A stretch of 64,000 bases of DNA from Iphinoe sp. HA4291-MV1 (lineage in GTDB: Bacteria; Cyanobacteriota; Cyanobacteriia; Cyanobacteriales; Nostocaceae), in assembly GCA_019359415.1 (NCBI GenBank), contig JAHHHH010000028.1, positions 1-64,000 of the forward strand, read 5' to 3'. The translations under genes and the position numbers were made by a program. Of the stretch, positions 16,994 through 59,477 are shown in pieces. Below the pieces are notes generated by a model that saw only the letters and a program-made list of their open reading frames with translations, was not told the DNA's origin and made no database searches. Numbering within the stretch: the first letter of the stretch is position 1; every line of letters begins with the position of its first letter.

Positions 16994-17013
16994 TTAATAA
17001 TATAGATACACAT

Positions 17014-17112
17014 ATATAGCAATCCTAAATGATTCGTGAAAAAATACTGTTAAGAGTTAAGCGTTCCCTGCCCTCGTGAGTCAATTTACAATCTCATTTA
17101 GGACTGCTATAT
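17014..17112. mobile_element. 99-bp MITE-like element with 19-bp terminal inverted repeats
   Basis: ATATAGCAATCCTAAATGA at 17014-17032 is matched, with one mismatch, by the complement of 17094-17112. There is no coding capacity. It fills the space between the flavoprotein gene and the Uma2 gene. Confidence 0.7.
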
Positions 17113-17158
17113 TTATATTCCTTGAATTCCTGAACTCCTAATTTAAAAGGTGATTGCC

Positions 17159-17863
17159 ATGTCTCAAAACACTTTAACACCAACAAAAACAGTTCCACCT
17201 CTTGAAAACGGAGATCAACTAACGCGCATTGAATTTGAACAGCGTTATCAACAGATGCCTTATGTTAAAAAAGCCGAACTAATCGAAAGAATTGTTTATA
17301 TGGCATCACCCTTAAGAATTATTCAACATGGAGAACCCCATGCTTCAATTATGACATGGCTGGGTTTCTATAAAGCTTCTACTCCTAATGTTCAACTAGG
17401 AGATAATTGTACAGTGCGTCTTGATGCAGAAAATGAGCCTCAACCCGATGCTTTACTAAGAATTACCGTAGATGGACAATCAACGATTAGCGAAGATGGC
17501 TATGTAGAAGGTGCGCCAGAATTAATTGTAGAAATCGCAGCCAGCACTGCCTCTATTGATTTACATGATAAATTAAAAGCCTGCCGACGCAATCAAGTTC
17601 AAGAATATTTAGTTTGGCGGGTTTATGACGGAGAATTTGATTGGTTTCGGTTAAGGGAAGGAAAATATATGAAACTTCAGCCGAATGAAGAAGGCATTAT
17701 TTGTAGTGAATACTTTCCTGGTTTATGGTTGGCTCAAGAAGCTTTACTTACAGGAAATTTAGCCCAAGTATTAGCAATTTTACAACAAGGATTAAATACT
17801 TCAGAATATCAAAATTTTGTTAAAAGAATGTCCGAGAATTCTGATTCAATACCAAACACCTGA
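17159..17863 (+). CDS. Uma2 family protein (DUF820, PD-(D/E)XK fold)
   Basis: A 234-residue member of the Uma2 family, very abundant in cyanobacteria, with a restriction-endonuclease-like fold and no proven role. Motifs: LIERIVYMASP near the start, QPDALLRI (the Asp of the PD motif), and PELIVEIAASTASIDLHDKLKACRRNQVQEYLVW, with E-x-A in place of the more usual E-x-K. ATG at 17159 is preceded by AAAAGG at suitable spacing; a GTG three codons upstream is less likely. It sits at the edge of the toxin-antitoxin island. Confidence 0.88.
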   Translation: MSQNTLTPTKTVPPLENGDQLTRIEFEQRYQQMPYVKKAELIERIVYMASPLRIIQHGEPHASIMTWLGFYKASTPNVQLGDNCTVRLDAENEPQPDALLRITVDGQSTISEDGYVEGAPELIVEIAASTASIDLHDKLKACRRNQVQEYLVWRVYDGEFDWFRLREGKYMKLQPNEEGIICSEYFPGLWLAQEALLTGNLAQVLAILQQGLNTSEYQNFVKRMSENSDSIPNT

Positions 17864-17974
17864 ACTTTCCCAAACTCCTTTGGAAGAAAAGCGATCGCTC
17901 TTTTTCTGTTCTTTTCTACTCACCTGTGCCAGAGTGTAGAATCAAGGTAAATAAAATTAAAAAAAATAAATGAA

Positions 17975-18211
17975 ATGCTAAAGATTAGTGTTGAAGAAGC
18001 AGCTCGTAACTTAAAAGAACTTTTAGAACGGGTAGCCAAGGGAGAAGAGGTGATTCTGGTGGAGCAAGAAAAAGCAGTTGCTCGCATAGTCCCGTTGCAG
18101 CAAAAGGAACAGTGGTTAGCCAGCACAAAAGAATTCCGAGATTCTTTGCAAGTCAAGGGTGAGCCTTTGAGTGTAACTGTGATTAATGAACGTCAACAGG
18201 AGCGCTCTTGA
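17975..18211 (+). CDS. Phd/YefM-type antitoxin
   Basis: A 78-residue protein with the Phd/YefM N-terminal DNA-binding fold: ISVEEAARNLKELLERVAKGEEVILVEQEKAVARIVP. The C-terminal 30 residues are polar and would wrap the toxin. It overlaps the next gene by 4 bases (TTGA), the normal arrangement for an antitoxin-toxin pair. It probably represses its own promoter; no operator was identified. Confidence 0.9.
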   Translation: MLKISVEEAARNLKELLERVAKGEEVILVEQEKAVARIVPLQQKEQWLASTKEFRDSLQVKGEPLSVTVINERQQERS

Positions 18212-18645
18212 TCTATCTAGATACTAGCGTTATTGCTCCCTTCTATTGGGCAGAGGCGCTGAGTGGTACAGTTGAGCAATTACTGAGGATTGAAACTGAG
18301 CCTGGATTAAGCCAGTTGGCTGAGGTAGAATTGTTTTCGGCATTGTCCCGCAGAATCAGGATGGGAGAAATCTCTCAGGAAGATGCAAGAGGAATAGTAA
18401 AGCGGTTCCAAGCTGATATAGATAACAGCTTTTATACGTATATTACATTAGAGTCAGTCCACTACAACCTAGCACGCGATTGGATTAGTCGGTTTGAAAC
18501 ACCCCTTCGTACTCTAGATGCGCGACATTTGGCAATTGCTGCTAAGCATAACTTGCGCTTGGTGACAGCTGATGAGGCGCTAGCTGTCAGCGCCAAGATT
18601 TTCGGAGTCGAGGCTCAGATGTTAAGACCTCTGAGTGAAAGCTAA
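18208..18645 (+). CDS. PIN-domain toxin (VapC family)
   Basis: A 145-residue PIN ribonuclease and partner of the preceding antitoxin. Acidic site residues are visible: Asp4 in IYLDTSV, Glu in EVELFSAL, Asp in LDARHLAIA and Asp in LVTADEAL. The start is TTG at 18208, overlapping the antitoxin stop; there is no ATG that would keep the LDTS motif. VapC toxins usually cut tRNA or rRNA; the target here is unknown. Confidence 0.9.
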   Translation: MIYLDTSVIAPFYWAEALSGTVEQLLRIETEPGLSQLAEVELFSALSRRIRMGEISQEDARGIVKRFQADIDNSFYTYITLESVHYNLARDWISRFETPLRTLDARHLAIAAKHNLRLVTADEALAVSAKIFGVEAQMLRPLSES

Positions 18646-18696
18646 AGTCGCGATCGCGCAGAGCGATCATACTTTTTCTCCTCAACAATCCAGGTT

Positions 18697-18797
18697 GATG
18701 CATTAGCAATGCAGGTCGATGCATTAGCAATGCAGGTCGATGCATTAGCAATGCAGGTCGATGCATTAGCAATCCCAGCCGATGCATTAACAATGCA
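18697..18797. repeat. 21-bp tandem repeat, locus C (about 5 units)
   Basis: Units of GATGCATTAGCAATGCAGGTC repeat about five times, with the last two degenerate. Each unit contains TGCATT-AGC-AATGCA, a small inverted repeat, so the array can fold into serial hairpins. HIP1 octamers lie on both sides (18650 and 18866). The period is the same as loci A and B but the sequence is unrelated. Confidence 0.8.
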
Positions 18798-18865
18798 CGC
18801 CCCTTGCGTTTAGATAGCACTGCAATACAAAGACTAAACCACAAGACGTCATGAGTGGCAAGTAG

Positions 18866-18919
18866 CGCGATCGCCCCTTGGGAGCATCGCATGATTGCGG
18901 GCGTTCTGCGCGATCGCGC
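18866..18919. repeat. HIP1-bounded palindromic repeat
   Basis: Two HIP1 octamers bracket GCATCGC/GCGGGCG-type palindromic sequence. It belongs to the dispersed HIP1-palindrome family of this window. Confidence 0.5.
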
Positions 18920-18953
18920 TTTTTCTCTCCCTAGTTTTCTTGCTTCCACATTT

Positions 18954-19027
18954 CTACAACTCTACTACTACACCTAAAGCTTTGAGCGCTGCATTTTCAG
19001 CTTTGGTTATATCCATAACATCGGCTT
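18954..19027 (-). pseudogene. Relic of a NACHT/WD40-protein C-terminus
   Basis: Read on the minus strand, this gives EADVMDITKAENAALKALGVVVEL followed by TAG in two pieces: DVMDITKAE matches GVTGLTEAQ and ALKALGVVVEL matches the LKALGAVE tail of the large NACHT protein at 20702-24058. An in-frame TAA lies just upstream, so only the tail survives. It sits directly beyond the stop of the PIN toxin gene. Confidence 0.55.
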
Positions 19028-19043
19028 CTTACCTGCATATTGA

Positions 19044-19445
19044 CTAATCCACCCAATTTTCTATGACTAAATCTGGAATTTGAGAAAGTTCTCTGACATT
19101 ATTAGTTACTAAAATTAATCCTAGACTGATTGCTTGGGATGCTATTAGCATATCCATTGAACCAATGACGATACCTTTTCGCTCCAACTCTGCTCGAATT
19201 CTTCCATAGATTTGTGTCGCGTTTTCATCAAAGGGGATAATTTTCAGAGAAATTAAAAACTGACTGAGCGCTGCCTGATTTTGCTCTCGACGTTGGCTTT
19301 TGTAAACGCCATACTCAAGTTCTGCAACTGTAATGGAGGAAATGCCAACATCAAATATGTCTAGTGTTTGAAATTTATCGAATACTTTAGGTGGCTTCTT
19401 TTTAATAATGTAGATACACGTATTTGTATCCAGCAAAAATCTCAT
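19044..19445 (-). CDS. vapC: PIN-domain toxin (VapC family)
   Basis: A 133-residue VapC. It starts MRFLLDTNTCIYIIK with the first catalytic Asp, then SSITVAELEYGV with the Glu, GSMDMLIASQA and LVTNNVRELSQIPDL at the C-terminal active site, all typical of the tRNA-fMet-cleaving VapC branch. It overlaps its antitoxin gene by 4 bases. It is oriented opposite to the first toxin-antitoxin pair. Confidence 0.93.
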   Translation of the reverse strand: MRFLLDTNTCIYIIKKKPPKVFDKFQTLDIFDVGISSITVAELEYGVYKSQRREQNQAALSQFLISLKIIPFDENATQIYGRIRAELERKGIVIGSMDMLIASQAISLGLILVTNNVRELSQIPDLVIENWVD

Positions 19446-19672
19446 TCAAAAGCCTCTCTAATCTCTAAACTAGGCTGTTCTCTAGTTTCCATAAAGTCAT
19501 CAGAAAAGAGTTCAGTCGCGTCAAATAAAGTTTGCCAAGGATTTTCTTTGGAAATTAAGACAACAGCATTGCCTATCTTTTTGATATAAACTTCATTACC
19601 TTGGAACTGAAATTCCTTGGGCAAAACCACGGTCTGATTCTCACCATTCGTCAATAATTTAGCAGTGTTCAT
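19442..19672 (-). CDS. vapB: VapB-type antitoxin (AbrB/SpoVT fold)
   Basis: A 76-residue swapped-hairpin antitoxin: TAKLLTNGENQTVVLPKEFQF then GNEVYIKKIGNAVVLI is the MazE/VapB AbrB-type DNA-binding domain, followed by a polar tail (ELFSDDF...QPSLEIREAFE) that would bind the toxin. Its stop overlaps the toxin start by 4 bases. Confidence 0.93.
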   Translation of the reverse strand: MNTAKLLTNGENQTVVLPKEFQFQGNEVYIKKIGNAVVLISKENPWQTLFDATELFSDDFMETREQPSLEIREAFE

Positions 19673-19789
19673 ATTTGAATCTCTCAGTTCTGTTGATTCT
19701 TTTAACTGTCATGGATATTGGCAAAGTTCACTCAATTTCTTTGTGCAATATTATAGCTATATTGAGATGTAAGCGTTTTTGGAAGAAAA

Positions 19790-19827
19790 GCGATTGGCTT
19801 TGCTACCGCCCCGCCAAGGGCGATCGT
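19790..19827. repeat. HIP1-type palindromic repeat
   Basis: GCGATTGGCTTTGC...CCAAGGGCGATCGT, the same dispersed palindrome type as at 15901 and 42996. Confidence 0.5.
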
Positions 19828-19855
19828 GTACTGAATTAGTCTATTCTGGTTCAAT

Positions 19856-20245
19856 CTAGTTAATCCCTAAACGTCTAAAGTCTCTATCAAATGAAACTAC
19901 GCTTTCACCTGTGTGACGTGCGATTTCCGCCAGATAAGCATCAAGGAAATCAACATTTGCACTAGCCATAAGGTTGAGGGCTGCGGTGACTTGTTGTATT
20001 TCATCACAGCTAATACCGTCAGATGCAATTAACGGTAACAAAATTTCAGCTATTTGGGTGCGGGAATATCGATAAAATGAACTCAATACCCAAACGATTT
20101 CTGCAACTACAATTGGTGAAAGTTTAAGGCTCACTTCTCCTTGTTCAGCCTTTTGTATTAATCTTAAAGCACGTTCTGCTAATTCAGGTGGTTCTCCTGT
20201 AAGAAAACGTAGTAAAACATTAGCATCTACCCACAAATCTGCCAT
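19856..20245 (-). CDS. PIN-domain toxin
   Basis: A 129-residue PIN protein: LWVDANVLLRFLTGEPPE with the first Asp, VVAEIVWVLSSFYRYSR with the Glu, NVDFLDAYLAEIARHTGESVVSFDRDFRRLG with the remaining acidic residues. It starts 2 bases after its partner's stop. It is the third PIN toxin gene within 2.3 kb. Confidence 0.9.
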   Translation of the reverse strand: MADLWVDANVLLRFLTGEPPELAERALRLIQKAEQGEVSLKLSPIVVAEIVWVLSSFYRYSRTQIAEILLPLIASDGISCDEIQQVTAALNLMASANVDFLDAYLAEIARHTGESVVSFDRDFRRLGIN

Positions 20246-20247
20246 TA

Positions 20248-20484
20248 TTATTTGTTAATTATTTCTTGCGCCAAAGATTCGCCCACTATTTTACGAATTT
20301 CCTCCTTTCCTGGATAGGGTTGAGTTGTTTTTAATGCACCGTAAAATTCGCTAAGTCTTTTTTTGGGATTTGTATCAATTTTTTGAGTACGGAATTTGAG
20401 AAATTCAATAAAATCAGCTACAAGTTGAAATTGTTCTTCACTAAGCTTGTCTATTTCTTGTTTGAGACTTTCTTTCGTTGTCAT
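20248..20484 (-). CDS. Probable antitoxin partner of the PIN toxin
   Basis: A 78-residue protein with the helix SLKQEIDKLSEEQFQLVADFIEFLKFRT, seen in DUF2281 and related small antitoxins, then a polar tail (LSEFYGALKTTQPYPGKEEIRKIVGESL). It has no AbrB or Phd fold that I can recognise, so the call rests on the helix and on its place directly before a PIN gene. Confidence 0.75.
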   Translation of the reverse strand: MTTKESLKQEIDKLSEEQFQLVADFIEFLKFRTQKIDTNPKKRLSEFYGALKTTQPYPGKEEIRKIVGESLAQEIINK

Positions 20485-20530
20485 TGTTTTTTGGCTAGTT
20501 GCGTTTTCAGATTGTGTGAATATTTTAATT

Positions 20531-20668
20531 TTACATTTCCCCTTCTTCCACTGCGCCTAATGCTTTCAGCGTAGCAATGTCGTCTGAAGTTAAACCCTTA
20601 ACGCCTGTGATGTTCATGCGTTCATAAGGGGAATTCGCTCTTACTATATTAGAGAAAGGGTGGAGCGC
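20531..20668 (-). pseudogene. Relic C-terminus of a second NACHT/WD40 protein
   Basis: On the minus strand an open stretch reads IVRANSPYERMNITGVKGL then TSDDIATLKALGAVEEGEM and TAA. This aligns over its whole length with the tail of the intact gene next door (RVPRPYENMSIKGIRGLTEAAKDSLKALGAVEDGE, shown in part). A TAA closes the frame upstream, so the rest of the protein is gone. It lies 33 bases beyond the stop of the intact gene. Confidence 0.75.
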
Positions 20669-20701
20669 TTATCCAACCATAGCTTCCGTATCGTTCCAGA
20701 T

Positions 20702-23700
20702 TTATTCTCCATCTTCCACCGCACCTAATGCTTTAAGTGAGTCTTTTGCAGCTTCTGTTAAACCTCTAATACCTTTGATACTCATGTTTTCGTAAGGTCG
20801 GGGAACTCTCAATATCTTAAGGCACTCACCTGTTTCGATATCCCAAATCCTAATAGTTTCATCTTGGCTGCTACTTGCTAGAATCGAACCTTCGTAATTT
20901 AAAGCAACTGACCAAACACCTCTAGTATGTCCATGTAAAGTTTTTAAGCATTCACCGTTTTTTAGATTCCACAGTTTTATGGTTTCATCAGCACTACCAC
21001 TTACTAAATTTTGATCATCAGGACTAAAAGCTAATGATTGAACATCATGAGTATGTCCTTGTAAAGTTTGTATGCATTTGCCTGTTTTAATATCCCATAA
21101 CTTTATTGTTTTATCTTTGCTACCACTAGCTACCGTTAAGCCATCAAAACTGAACACTACTGTATGTACATCAGCAGTATGTCCTTGCCAAATGTGAATG
21201 CATTTACCTGTTTTGATATCCCATAAGCGTATCGTTTCATCAGAACTTGCACTAGCAAAGGTAACACCATCAGGGCTGAAGGCAACTGACATTGTCCAAC
21301 TTATATGTCCTTTAAAGTTAAAAATTTCTTTCCCATCAGCAACTTGCCAAACACGAATTTGACCATTTGCGTCACTTGCGACTAAATATTTACCATCAGG
21401 GCTAAATGCTGCTGACTGAACACTTCCAAAGGCTTGAGTAAAGACAGAATAAACTAAGTTGGCTTCATTAAAATTGGTACTTTGCAAACTAGCATCAGTA
21501 AAATCAGCCCCCTTAATCACTGCACTACTCAAATTTCTGCCCTCCAAAGCCACCTTGTCTACCTTCACAGCCAAAGTTGCTGCATTCCCCCCAACATAGC
21601 TCGCCTCATCTTCACTTTTACCCCGCGTCGCCTCAATAACACTAATTAGAAACTCGTTATCACCTAACACCGGCAAAAGCAAATCCATCACTGCTTTTGT
21701 CAAGAGCGCTTTCCCAAAACTCTCCCTCAACTTCTCCAACGACTCACTTGCAAATCTCCTCAGCGGCGCACTTGGCAAAATCTTCCCCGCCTCATCCACC
21801 CGCCGACGAAAATAAGATGACCAAGTATAATCAACAGGTGCATCATTATTTATATGCGATCGCCCTTGGGCGGGTGCTCCGCACCATCGCGCCTGCGCCA
21901 ATTCGATAAAATCATCCGCCAACGCCCCCAACTCAGCCGCAAACTTATAAGCCACAAAAAACTCTAACAGCGAACGATGCGCCGGAGTATAATCACCATC
22001 GGCATTTCGGATAAGTATCGTCTGACCCATCATGTCATAATGCCAGTGGTCTAAATCCTTCTCCTCTTGAACAACATCACCAAACAAGCGACGAATTCTG
22101 TCGGGAAAAAGGCGATAATTTAAACTCATCTGGTCAGTAGACAACATTTCCCAGGAAAGCTCACACAAAAAGTAGAGCTTATCTGCCAAAGAAGTAAAAG
22201 TACGCTCCGCTTTGATGTCCCGTTCCATCTTCCGCCGCACCGCATACAGGTAAACCCGCGACATATCCACTGGCTTACCTGCTTCAATATCTGGCAATGC
22301 TTCTAAAATTAACTCAGTCATCACAGGACGACGTGCCAAATCCAACAAATGTGGATTGTCCATCACCTGCTCAACTGTGGTAGATTCAGCTTGGAATGAC
22401 AACACTCGCCGGATTTGCTCGTCGTTGAATTTCTCCAGTTCCAGCACTTCAAACTGGGGCGTTTCACCTGTCAGGTTGGCGGTAGACGCTTGCAATTCTG
22501 CGTTGAGTAAAGCACGTCCTTCTTTTGCTTCTGGAAAATGTTCGGTGCGACAAGTCAAGATAACCTTCGCACCGGGAACGACGACTTTCGCCAACTCCCA
22601 AAAGTTGTTGATCATTTGTTGGCGATCGCACTTTGCTGCCATTTCGTCAAAACCATCGAAAATCAGCAGCAGTTTCCCCATGCTGTTGAGTTGATCAAAA
22701 ACCTCGCTGTTTAAGCGAATATTATGTTGCGTAAAAAAGAAACCCGCCAAAACGTTCTCAACATTCAGTGCTTTGGCATAGTCGCGCAGCGTAATTATCA
22801 AAGGAAGACGCGGACGTTCAACGCCACGTTTTTGAGCATCTCGGTACCGTTGCAGTGCAATCCACGCATAATGAAAAGCAAACCAAGTTTTTCCAGTGCC
22901 AAATTCCCCTAAAATAGAGATATGCTCCTTTGCAGGGTCATCTAACCACACATCAAGATAACCATCAATCCAGCCGTCGCGTTCATCGTAGTGACTGACT
23001 CCTATCCGGCGCTTGCTCACTGAGTCAAATTCTTCTTTAGTGCAAGCTAACGGCACATATTTTTGGTCAATTTCTCGGCGCTTGACTTCTGCTTCTAGCC
23101 AGTCGAGATAATCACTGAAGTCAGCATCTTGATCTATCAGTTCGTCGAAAGTATAACAGTCAAGGTGACGATTTTCTTCTTTCTCCACTTCATCACGTGC
23201 TGCTCGTGAAATTCGCCTTGCTGTGACTAACCAACCTTCATCAGTTTTTTGCGTTTCCACCGACTGACGCAAAGCCATCACATCACCTAGTCCCGCCTCA
23301 CCTTCAATTCCACGCACAAGAATTCGGTCATATCGATGACGTCGTGCGGGAATGTCAATAATCCACTCAAAATAGTTGTCTTCCCAAACTTCATACTTCT
23401 CAAAGCGGTAGCCCAAGGTTTCAAACCAACCTTGCATCTGTTGAGCTAAAGCTATGGCTCTACATTTCTTTTCATTTAGATTTTCATTTAGAGACGTTGC
23501 ATTCGACGTCTCTACACTCTGCGCTGCTAACCGGGCTATCTCTGTTCTCATTCCTTCCAGCGTCGGTAGCCTTTCCAACTGTTCTTGAATGCTGACTATT
23601 TTTTTATGTAATGAGCCGAGCTGATGGCTCATCAAAATATCATTAGGTGTACGCGATCGATTGACAACTTCAATAAAAACAGTCGCAAAGACAGTCACTT

Positions 23701-24058
23701 CCCGCTTCACATCAATTCCCATTGCTCTAACTTCATCTCCCAAAGCATAAGCATCGAGAAAAACTTCTATTTCAGATAAAAGAATTGAAATGTGATTGTG
23801 ATCGTACGCTTTGCGGAAAGCCTGTTTGATTTCTTCTTGGCGGAAAAGTTCGAGGAATGGCTTGGGTTTACCTACACCGTATTCTACCAGGGTGTAGGCG
23901 TAAACTCCACTGAAATCAGCAGGTGGATGCTCTGGATCAAGGTTAAATTGTTTTAATAATTTAATGACAGTCTCATTACGCTGAAGCTTTTCTTTAATGA
24001 TTGGGTTAGCAATACCAGTTATGGCGCTGATGAGTGAGTCAAGATTAATTGGTATCAC
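20702..24058 (-). CDS. NACHT-type STAND NTPase with REase-like region and WD40 repeats
   Basis: A 1118-residue NLR-like protein. Residues 1-180 are helical, like an N-terminal NACHT-associated domain. Residues 205-310 resemble an Mrr-type restriction-endonuclease fold (WIIDIP, RILVRGIEGEAGLGDV, GWLVTARRISRAARDEV, CYTFDELID), but the usual (E/Q)xK is not clear. The NTPase core follows: P-loop GEFGTGKT (384-391), Walker B LLIFDGFDE (464-472), and sensor TCRTEHF (502-508). A short pentapeptide-like stretch (FTDASLQSTNFNEANL, about 850) precedes five WD40 repeats (about 880-1083), and the tail is GLTEAAKDSLKALGAVE. A HIP1 palindrome is translated near 720-735. Such proteins sense phage or stress and oligomerise; a defence role is inferred from this architecture and the adjacent toxins. 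Confidence 0.9.
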   Translation of the reverse strand: MIPINLDSLISAITGIANPIIKEKLQRNETVIKLLKQFNLDPEHPPADFSGVYAYTLVEYGVGKPKPFLELFRQEEIKQAFRKAYDHNHISILLSEIEVFLDAYALGDEVRAMGIDVKREVTVFATVFIEVVNRSRTPNDILMSHQLGSLHKKIVSIQEQLERLPTLEGMRTEIARLAAQSVETSNATSLNENLNEKKCRAIALAQQMQGWFETLGYRFEKYEVWEDNYFEWIIDIPARRHRYDRILVRGIEGEAGLGDVMALRQSVETQKTDEGWLVTARRISRAARDEVEKEENRHLDCYTFDELIDQDADFSDYLDWLEAEVKRREIDQKYVPLACTKEEFDSVSKRRIGVSHYDERDGWIDGYLDVWLDDPAKEHISILGEFGTGKTWFAFHYAWIALQRYRDAQKRGVERPRLPLIITLRDYAKALNVENVLAGFFFTQHNIRLNSEVFDQLNSMGKLLLIFDGFDEMAAKCDRQQMINNFWELAKVVVPGAKVILTCRTEHFPEAKEGRALLNAELQASTANLTGETPQFEVLELEKFNDEQIRRVLSFQAESTTVEQVMDNPHLLDLARRPVMTELILEALPDIEAGKPVDMSRVYLYAVRRKMERDIKAERTFTSLADKLYFLCELSWEMLSTDQMSLNYRLFPDRIRRLFGDVVQEEKDLDHWHYDMMGQTILIRNADGDYTPAHRSLLEFFVAYKFAAELGALADDFIELAQARWCGAPAQGRSHINNDAPVDYTWSSYFRRRVDEAGKILPSAPLRRFASESLEKLRESFGKALLTKAVMDLLLPVLGDNEFLISVIEATRGKSEDEASYVGGNAATLAVKVDKVALEGRNLSSAVIKGADFTDASLQSTNFNEANLVYSVFTQAFGSVQSAAFSPDGKYLVASDANGQIRVWQVADGKEIFNFKGHISWTMSVAFSPDGVTFASASSDETIRLWDIKTGKCIHIWQGHTADVHTVVFSFDGLTVASGSKDKTIKLWDIKTGKCIQTLQGHTHDVQSLAFSPDDQNLVSGSADETIKLWNLKNGECLKTLHGHTRGVWSVALNYEGSILASSSQDETIRIWDIETGECLKILRVPRPYENMSIKGIRGLTEAAKDSLKALGAVEDGE
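21856..21890. repeat. HIP1-bounded palindrome inside the NACHT gene
   Basis: GCGATCGCCC...GGGTGCTCCGCACCATCGC is of the dispersed palindrome family and is read in frame, encoding about RWCGAPAQGRSH between two conserved helices. Confidence 0.6.
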
Positions 24059-24606
24059 AGGCGCTATTTTGTATCAAAGGGAAGTTTTTATCTTGCTTAT
24101 ACTTATGTTAACGCTTGCTAATATTCGAGCTTTGGTGAAACACTAGTACTCGACCACACAAGTTTTGACAGGTGATCAGAAACCCGGTTTCTAGCTTCCA
24201 CGAGTCGTCAGGCGTTACTGTGGTGGACTACTCTCAAGGAGAGCATCCCAAATGTACAAATTTATTTCGTCTTCTTGCGCAGAACAGTTAGCAGCTTTTC
24301 ATCCAGCACGGTAGTATTAGTAATACGTTAAAAGACTTGCAACAATCGTTTACAAGTCTTAAAAACAGAAGTAACAAGTTTTAGAGTAGCTAACTGCTAC
24401 CCTGCTTGATATGCATCTATCCGCATTAAGTAGAAAAATCGCTGGGTTTGCCGCAAAAAACATGTACTTTTGCGGCACAAGCTAAACTACACGCCATAGT
24501 GGACAGTTATTCACAGCATCTTGCCCGTCAAGCAAGAAACAAGAGCGGCAAAAAGTACCACTCCAAACTGCACAAAACTGTCCTCACATTTGACGAATCT
24601 ACTAGT
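24059..24606. other. Spacer with a possible diverged MITE
   Basis: No gene. AGTACTCGACCAC (24145) and GTGGTGGACTACT (24220-24232) are an imperfect inverted pair around AGAAACCCGGTTTCT, a core also found in the elements at 32762 and 58671. AAGACTTG/CAAGTCTT (about 24330-24361) forms a small hairpin. An ATG-less in-frame extension of the next gene runs back to 24448 but looks non-coding. Confidence 0.45.
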
Positions 24607-59077: not shown

Positions 59078-59087
59078 ACTGGCAAAT

Positions 59088-59477
59088 ATGGAAATTACGC
59101 GGGAGTGGTGGGAAAACCGCTGCAGCAATTTCAATATTTATATATCCGAAGTTGTTTTAGATGAAGCCGCACAAGGTGATGCTGAAATAGCAGCTAAACG
59201 ATTAGAGATTATTAGTAATTTTCCATTACTGGAATTGAACGATACCGTAGAATATTTAGCATCACAATTTCTTAGCAAAAGTAACCTTCCAGGCAAAGCT
59301 GCAAACGATGCGCTTCACATTGCACTAGCTACGGTTTATGGATTGGATTATTTGTTAACCTGGAACTGTAAGCACATTGCAAACGCACAAATACAGAAGA
59401 AACTATCGCAAATTAGCGTTGAATCTGGATATACACTACCAATCATTTGCACACCTTATGAACTAATTGGAGATTAA
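59088..59477 (+). pseudogene. 5'-truncated PIN-domain toxin gene
   Basis: The 129 codons from ATG 59088 read ITREWWENRCSNFNIYISEVVLDEAAQGDAEIAAKRLEIISNFPLLELN... and end with NDALHIALATVYGLDYLLTWNCKHIAN, matching the second and third acidic motifs of a VapC branch. The N-terminal strand with LDTS and the first Asp is absent, and the preceding sequence is a HIP1 palindrome. It is therefore a decayed toxin, or a shortened protein of unknown activity. Confidence 0.65.

Follow-up and report, generated by a model that had tools for sequence, protein, structure and literature searches.

In chromosomal integrons, toxin-antitoxin (TA) genes are exchangeable cassettes that lie between repeated sequences. 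Here we describe a related arrangement behind a nucleotide-binding leucine-rich repeat (NLR)-like gene of a cyanobacterium, the NACHT-WD40 gene found in a stretch of 64,000 nucleotides (hereafter, the window) from contig JAHHHH010000028.1 of Iphinoe sp. HA4291-MV1. As with the TA cassettes of chromosomal integrons, outlined in PMC11551772, the TA genes are exchangeable and lie between repeats. Unlike in integrons, the repeat is the end of a protein-coding gene, namely the 3' end of the NACHT gene, and no integrase is found nearby in the contigs checked. VapBC, PemIK and ParDE modules resemble the pairs found here in being overlapping or adjoining antitoxin-toxin gene pairs, but here such pairs recur behind one gene family and are ringed by copies of its 3' end.

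The NACHT-WD40 protein itself has two described counterparts. The bNACHT proteins (e.g. bNACHT25, PMC12169576) share its central STAND-class NACHT module and the possession of an extra N-terminal domain. However, bNACHT25 has an active PD-(D/E)XK nuclease, whereas the window protein, known from sequence alone, has a nuclease fold of an inactive family and a C-terminus of WD40 repeats and a tail. The WRAP-type protein Npun_R6612 of Nostoc, for which PMC9218822 gives 14 predicted WD40 blades, is likewise a cyanobacterial STAND ATPase, but the N-terminus of the window protein consists of NNH5 and an inactive restriction endonuclease (REase) domain, and its blades are less alike. The best sequence match in PDB is 2ymu, a WD-40 repeat protein. 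The accessible part of PMC9218822 makes no mention of TA cassettes beside WRAP-type proteins, and no description of TA cassettes framed by 3'-end copies of an NLR-like gene was found in the open literature as represented by titles and abstract openings, with subscription journals and preprints lying outside. What is new concerns structure, the 3' tail of NACHT being present in further copies among the TA pairs. We conclude that in filamentous cyanobacteria the 3' end of this NLR-like STAND gene is probably a recombination-driven landing place for type II TA cassettes, of which the window is one instance.

TA pairs downstream of NNH5-NACHT genes

Loci compared are designated by L-numbers and genomes by G-numbers; G000 (7.36 Mb) is the source genome of the window, which forms part of its contig C42. 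The first set of NNH5-NACHT loci began with 60 fetched loci, less 21 exclusions (14 short NNH5 proteins of another build and seven that were broken, cut or without a usable NACHT tail). Adding the window to the remaining 39 gives 40, of which 38 were counted, two having less than 1.5 kb behind the tail. The second set, the best 80 of 220 loci, supplied 52 after removal of 11 without a tail, six with less than 1.5 kb behind it and 11 duplicates of first-set loci, although further overlap between the sets is possible. TA genes were counted by one method throughout, a tblastn search with 30 TA reference proteins against the 1.5 kb behind the tail of the gene.

Predicted TA pairs are enriched directly behind the NNH5-NACHT family, and tail copies recur among them. 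A TA match occurs in 36 of the 90 loci (17/38 in the first set, window included, and 19/52 in the second), compared with 1/19 tail-bearing WD40 genes without NNH5 (Fisher p = 0.002). For full-length toxins, the corresponding numbers are 20/90 and 1/19 (p = 0.07). The sole control match is a DUF5615/DUF433 pair. At least 13 WD-like motifs are present in the tail's open frame in 18 of the 19 controls; the count for the nineteenth was made on the wrong frame, its open frame being 1138. Solo or degenerate tails have a TA match in 4 of 16 cases. Standing outside the 36 are L227 and L228, whose PIN gene has the opposite orientation (by Pfam for L227), and L221, with a DUF5615/DUF433-like pair recognized by eye. 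Given the density of PIN (323 in 106.6 Mb, 13 genomes), 0.41 PIN loci would be expected in 90 stretches of 1.5 kb, and 15 were counted. A Pfam search of 104 open reading frames (ORFs) behind 40 loci returned, among the best 25 of 137 families, nine PIN, five MazE, five DUF2281, four Phd, two ParE, two PemK and two ParD matches.

The TA proteins of the window are themselves found behind NACHT homologs elsewhere: DUF2281 at six loci (with a 96% identical copy in L041), Phd at three, VapB_b at three, PIN_c at one and whole PIN_a at one. The recurrence of these TA proteins downstream of NACHT homologs, at further loci and in further genera, shows that the association is real, and the co-occurrence on which the initial annotation had let its candidate defence island depend has been found. 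A TA family exclusive to NACHT loci was rejected for the two families tested, VapC_b and PemK_e, since relatives of both occur elsewhere.

These counts also bear on ordinary defence-island drift, in which TA genes would accumulate in any weakly selected region and the tails would be left over from tandem duplicates of NACHT. TA and defence genes are known to cluster, as set out in PMC3506569, but the single TA match among the 19 control genes speaks against drift, which we consider unlikely.

Copies of the gene end among TA cassettes

The NACHT gene ends in a conserved tail of about 105 bp, encoding about 33 residues (RPYExMNITGVKGLTEAEKATLKALGAVE). Each of the 24 genomes searched contains from 3 to 21 tails, mostly ending long frames. 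Behind NNH5-NACHT genes, tail copies recur between or beside TA pairs, with arrays in L033, L034, L036/L231, L142, L224, L229, L232, L242, L254 and L256. In L229 (Calothrix MO_167.B12), the order is tail, VapB with an in-frame stop, tail, PemIK, tail, Phd-PIN. In L036/L231 (Tolypothrix brevis), two consecutive tails are followed by DUF2281-PIN_c, a tail, inverted ParDE, a tail and a PemI gene remnant, and L142 reads tail, tail, PemIK, tail, ParDE. A single pair lies between two tails in L242 (VapBC), L256 (ParDE) and L254 (PemIK), the last with a 709-bp repeat that takes in the 3' untranslated region (UTR). The distance from the end of a TA gene to the next tail is 7-91 bp in L224, L229, L231, L232, L242, L254 and L256. 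By eye, a tail-PemK-tail unit followed by two similar genes, one of them matching Tox-PL-2 (a papain-fold toxin), occurs both in L034 with NACHT and in L184 without NACHT nearby.

Direct repeats of at least 40 bp within 900 bp of the toxin flank 11 of 27 NACHT-adjacent toxins and none of 22 other PIN genes of G000 (p = 0.0004); in L232, one of the flanking repeats is not a tail. This difference is hard to square with drift of a defence island, as are the remains themselves, which comprise the last 50-105 bp or so of the gene, no WD40 code being seen upstream of secondary tails in the array loci examined. In favor of drift, decayed beta-propeller fragments beside propeller genes are known (described in PMC9218822), L183 contains, together with Phd and a tail, what by eye resembles a relic of NNH5, and the second tail of L033 includes the end of a WD40 blade.

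Exchange and insertion at the gene end

Sequence comparison shows that TA pairs have been exchanged between loci and between genera; the breakpoints fall within the tails or next to them. The segment of the window comprising tail 2, DUF2281 and PIN_c is 89.3% identical in DNA to that of L036 (Tolypothrix) over 832 bp, and PIN_c has 93.8% identity with its copy there, compared with only 72.7% for the 5' 2.6 kb of NACHT. For DUF2281 and PIN_c, dS is 0.15-0.16, versus 0.48 for the NACHT core between the window and L039, from the same genus. L142 matches L034 (91%) from the last blades through the end of the third tail and L036 (94.6%) starting 24 bp before that tail.

Filled and empty versions of one locus diverge either at the stop codon of NACHT or about 120 bp downstream. 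On each side of such a point, L266 (Microcoleus vaginatus HSN003) and L264 share about 94% identity; 1.72 kb with VapBC starts 3 bp behind the NACHT stop in the former, and 159 bp lie there in the latter. Similarly, about 120 bp downstream of the stop, L255 has 31 bp at the point at which L256 has 1.70 kb containing ParDE and a tail. Although their NACHT genes are 90% identical, L242 and L256 carry VapBC and ParDE, respectively, between their tails. That insertions start at or near the stop codon in otherwise syntenic loci is a further point against island drift.

Under the landing-place model, incoming DNA with a tail and a TA pair would recombine at the 3' end of a resident NACHT gene. The NACHT frame would as a result retain a complete tail, and old tails would be left as footprints. 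Joining may proceed via homology of the tail or UTR in some loci and via HIP1 palindromes in others. Secondary tails of L034, L036 and L142 start at or beside a HIP1 palindrome, five of six with a small hairpin-like insert (by eye); the density of HIP1 in the fetched loci is 0.67 per kb. Once there, the TA pairs are most likely maintained as autonomous addiction or stress modules and may help to keep the locus where it is.

An integrase-driven element of the integron-array kind is not supported, as no tyrosine integrase (PF00589) was found on the array contigs G000:C42, G025:C778 and G027:C38; the nearest, in G137, is about 130 kb away. The idea that the tail contains a conserved DNA attachment site was likewise rejected, the identity at fourfold sites being 0.399 in the tail versus 0.414 in NACHT. 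Since tail DNA is no more conserved than NACHT DNA and the three contigs lack a tyrosine integrase, a classical att system is unlikely.

Several observations weigh against the gene end as a landing place. The tail is not a classical attachment site, and the three array contigs show no integrase. The resident UTR is proximal in L036, while L254 and L256 resemble duplications extending into the UTR, so that more than one route is needed. The three toxins of the window have no flanking direct repeats, and the 27 toxins used in the repeat test are a partial list of NACHT-adjacent toxins. The blade end in the second tail of L033 belongs here too, as do L222 and L274, in which the tail is duplicated behind the NACHT gene without a TA match. 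No TA match within 1.5 kb is seen in 54 of the 90 loci. The TA references were drawn from the loci under study, among them the controls, so that TA types beyond these escape detection; the loci share descent, and p-values therefore come out too small. Many assemblies are metagenome-assembled genomes or draft contigs. Finally, TA genes remain while most NACHT copies in the genus are interrupted.

The NACHT-WD40 protein and the question of joint action

The initial annotation had read the protein as an NLR-like STAND NTPase with an endonuclease-like N-terminal region and a WD40 sensor. The NACHT and WD40 parts are indeed present: Pfam identifies an NNH5 helical domain (residues 5-137), NA-iREase1 (203-308) and NACHT (about 380-552; PF05729, 1.9e-7, above the cut-off), followed by five WD40 stretches. 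The P-loop and Walker B motif of a NACHT-clade STAND NTPase are found as GEFGTGKT and FDGFDEMAA, both invariant across 39 orthologs. The N-terminal region does contain an REase-like domain, but an active endonuclease effector was rejected on its assignment to NA-iREase1, the inactive restriction endonuclease family of Pfam. By the same assignments, the protein would lack an active nuclease effector of the bNACHT anti-phage type, and no other active effector domain was recognized by Pfam.

The C-terminal repeat sensor is real but short, with five blades as opposed to the 13-14 of most intact relatives (read blade by blade, by eye). AlphaFold2 predicts 20 strands, equal to five blades, with pLDDT of about 90 in the WD40 part, although the model is poor overall (mean pLDDT 66.3, pTM 0.35). 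In the second set, 64 of 69 open frames ending in the NACHT tail have 1400-1586 residues, and the other five are broken and shorter; another short frame, besides that of the window, is that of L079 (G025), with 1078 residues and ending in a tail. The closest NACHT cores, among the best 80 of 220 loci, are those of Scytonema tolypothrichoides (89%), and of Scytonema sp. NIES-4073 and Brasilonema angustatum (88%). The window gene appears mosaic, because its last blades, tail and 3' UTR resemble those of L045 from another genus (76% across the final 240 bases together with about 77 of the UTR). It is best read as a mosaic that has been relocated, has a short propeller and is of uncertain activity.

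In a PADLOC search of eight proteins from the block around the gene, the NACHT protein matched HEAT-ARM_XIII via its WD40 repeats (4.2e-21) and, weakly, mads_8 over 41 residues round its P-loop (0.0028). DUF2281 gave a weak match to SP_VI, Uma2 matched families PDC-S03/S17, and no Avs model matched at E 0.01. Known defence genes beside the NACHT gene are not supported within these eight proteins, its neighbors among them comprising TA pairs and Uma2 only (Pfam, PADLOC). Like other bacterial NLRs, the NACHT protein presumably works through WD40 sensing and nucleoside triphosphate-dependent oligomerization, and family resemblance to the proteins of PMC12169576 suggests a possible role in phage defence.

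Were the locus one defence system, the NACHT-WD40 protein would sense phage and free the neighboring PIN, PemK or ParE toxins as interchangeable effectors. Such a division of labor would suit a NACHT protein with no recognized active effector domain, the differing toxin families at the same place, and antitoxins that start about 40-60 bp behind a same-strand tail in L033, L039, L041, L150 and at tail 2 of the window. It would also suit the purifying selection on the NACHT core (dN/dS 0.11) and the TA genes, values being 0.07-0.38 in nine of ten comparisons and the tenth, PIN_a, saturated. We nevertheless consider a single system quite unlikely. Many of the 54 loci without a TA match have a full-length frame, Phd-PIN_a is inverted, toxin-less antitoxins occur in L035, L041 and L145, TA genes survive beside broken NACHT genes, and some genomes with no NNH5 match also have close VapC relatives (83% identical in G026, for example). 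The variation in TA families, together with the inverted pair, the toxin-less antitoxins and the loci without a TA match, likewise tells against a fixed multi-gene system, raised by the initial annotation as a candidate new system. Integrase-free docking, whereby traveling tail-TA units enter and leave via tail recombination and give a constant NACHT sensor exchangeable toxin effectors, strikes us as similarly unlikely. Joint action of NACHT and the TA pairs in defence is possible but unsupported. TA genes often survive next to broken NACHT genes and are absent from the surroundings of many intact copies, which suggests that the cassettes exploit the gene end rather than forming an obligate joint system.

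The window block and its place in the genus

The features of the block are collected in Table 1. Three PIN TA pairs beside a 1118-codon NACHT-WD40 gene had been reported in the initial annotation, and all of these ORFs lie where it had placed them; tail 2 and the degenerate tail 3 were absent from its account. The PIN gene overlaps or adjoins its antitoxin gene in all three pairs, as in VapBC type II modules. Three of the 32 PIN matches in the genome fall within about 2.0 kb here, and this clustering exceeds chance. Two tails precede the first TA pair and the degenerate third follows VapC; compared with the tail alone, tail 3 scores 22, below the shuffle maximum of 26, and its assignment rests on homology to L035. 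The 46-bp spacer from the tail 2 stop to DUF2281 is a near match to the spacer of genus relatives. Also present in the window are a 21-bp tandem repeat of 5.3 copies (18686-18797, between VapC and PIN_a) and an extra PIN match (59082-59360) within a 212-aa open frame.

Table 1. Genes and gene-end copies in the block, with window coordinates
Feature	Position	Strand	Basis and remarks
Block without counterpart in genus relatives	16995..24287	.	intact lysE there in G001, lysE remains in G004 and G005
Uma2-family protein, within the same block	17150..17863	+	Pfam 2.1e-25
Phd/YefM antitoxin	17975..18211	+	Pfam 2.9e-9
PIN toxin PIN_a	18208..18645	+	Pfam PIN 4.3e-11
Degenerate tail 3	18897..19020	-	homology to L035 tail region
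VapC toxin	19044..19445	-	NCBIfam tRNA(fMet)-specific endonuclease VapC, 1.2e-54
VapB antitoxin	19442..19672	-	NCBIfam TA_anti_VapB, above cut-off
PIN toxin PIN_c, DUF2281 partner	19856..20245	-	Pfam PIN 3.9e-16
DUF2281-type antitoxin	20248..20484	-	Pfam 1.2e-5, slightly below cut-off
Tail 2, second tail copy	20534..20644	-	sequence comparison
Tail 1, NACHT gene 3' end, RPYENMSIKGIRGLTEAAKDSLKALGAVEDGE	20705..20800	-	sequence; 3' UTR resembles L045 (G010, another genus)
NACHT-WD40 gene	20702..24058	-	1118 aa, GTG start; NNH5 - inactive REase - NACHT - WD40 (five blades) - C-terminal tail

In six genus relatives holding both flanks, the gap between the FAD oxidoreductase and DUF502 genes is 0.6-3.0 kb, with no TA, Uma2 or NACHT match in it. 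The block is therefore particular to G000 within the genus. G006 has a different gene upstream of DUF502, the oxidoreductase not being on the contig piece. A LysE-family gene occupies the site in G001 (Pfam 1.5e-37), while the remains in G004 and G005 were recognized by eye. No target-site duplication was seen by eye at the insertion in the window.

A second, broken NACHT copy of G000 (L051:7416-10073) lies on contig C127, adjacent to Dak1 and Dak2 genes; in four other genomes of the genus, the NACHT copy is near these genes as well. Its NNH5 is 93.6% identical to that of the window, and a transposase-like ORF of 517 aa follows the NACHT remains (by eye). At this older locus, TA pairs are also found upstream of NACHT (L033, L039, L041, L042, L046 and L051), with AbrB-VapC in five of the six and PemK/RHH in L041, L042 and L051 (in L051 via Pfam). 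L042:5198-5856 (G004) holds a fusion-like antitoxin ORF, with DUF2281 in the first 57 residues and VapB at the C-terminus, followed by VapC. In L035, L037 and L040 (G012, G007 and G006), a HIP1 site (GCGATCGC) directly behind the NACHT Walker B motif is interrupted by a small insert of some 26 bases, which breaks the frame at the same place; two of these loci share one insert and the third differs.

Of nine copies of this type in eight genus genomes, only those of the window and G002 have one long open frame, the rest being interrupted, gapped or ending at a contig edge. This bears on the idea of an addiction guard, in which loss of the locus would be lethal to the cell through the TA pairs, so that a costly NLR gene is kept in the population. 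Stabilization by toxin-antitoxin genes is an established idea, according to PMC4963859 and PMC5543033, and the tight linkage and repeated gain of differing TA pairs at the same gene end would fit it. Such a guard does not prevent point mutations, however, and TA genes are left beside several broken copies, which argues against TA pairs protecting NACHT function. We regard an addiction guard as rather unlikely.

Implications

A landing place at the NACHT 3' end, if confirmed, would provide a concrete and testable genetic reason for the clustering of TA genes at defence-like genes, a receptive gene end in place of a vague island. It would also point to a recombination route that joins gene ends, with an integrase not seen nearby. 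Should cassette docking be true, the result would be a modular prokaryotic immune locus in which the weapon is swapped and the sensor left untouched. In the case of a landing place, natural filled and empty pairs, such as Microcoleus vaginatus HSN003 and Microcoleus sp. FACHB-61, would be suited to testing how a TA cassette affects an NLR-like gene.

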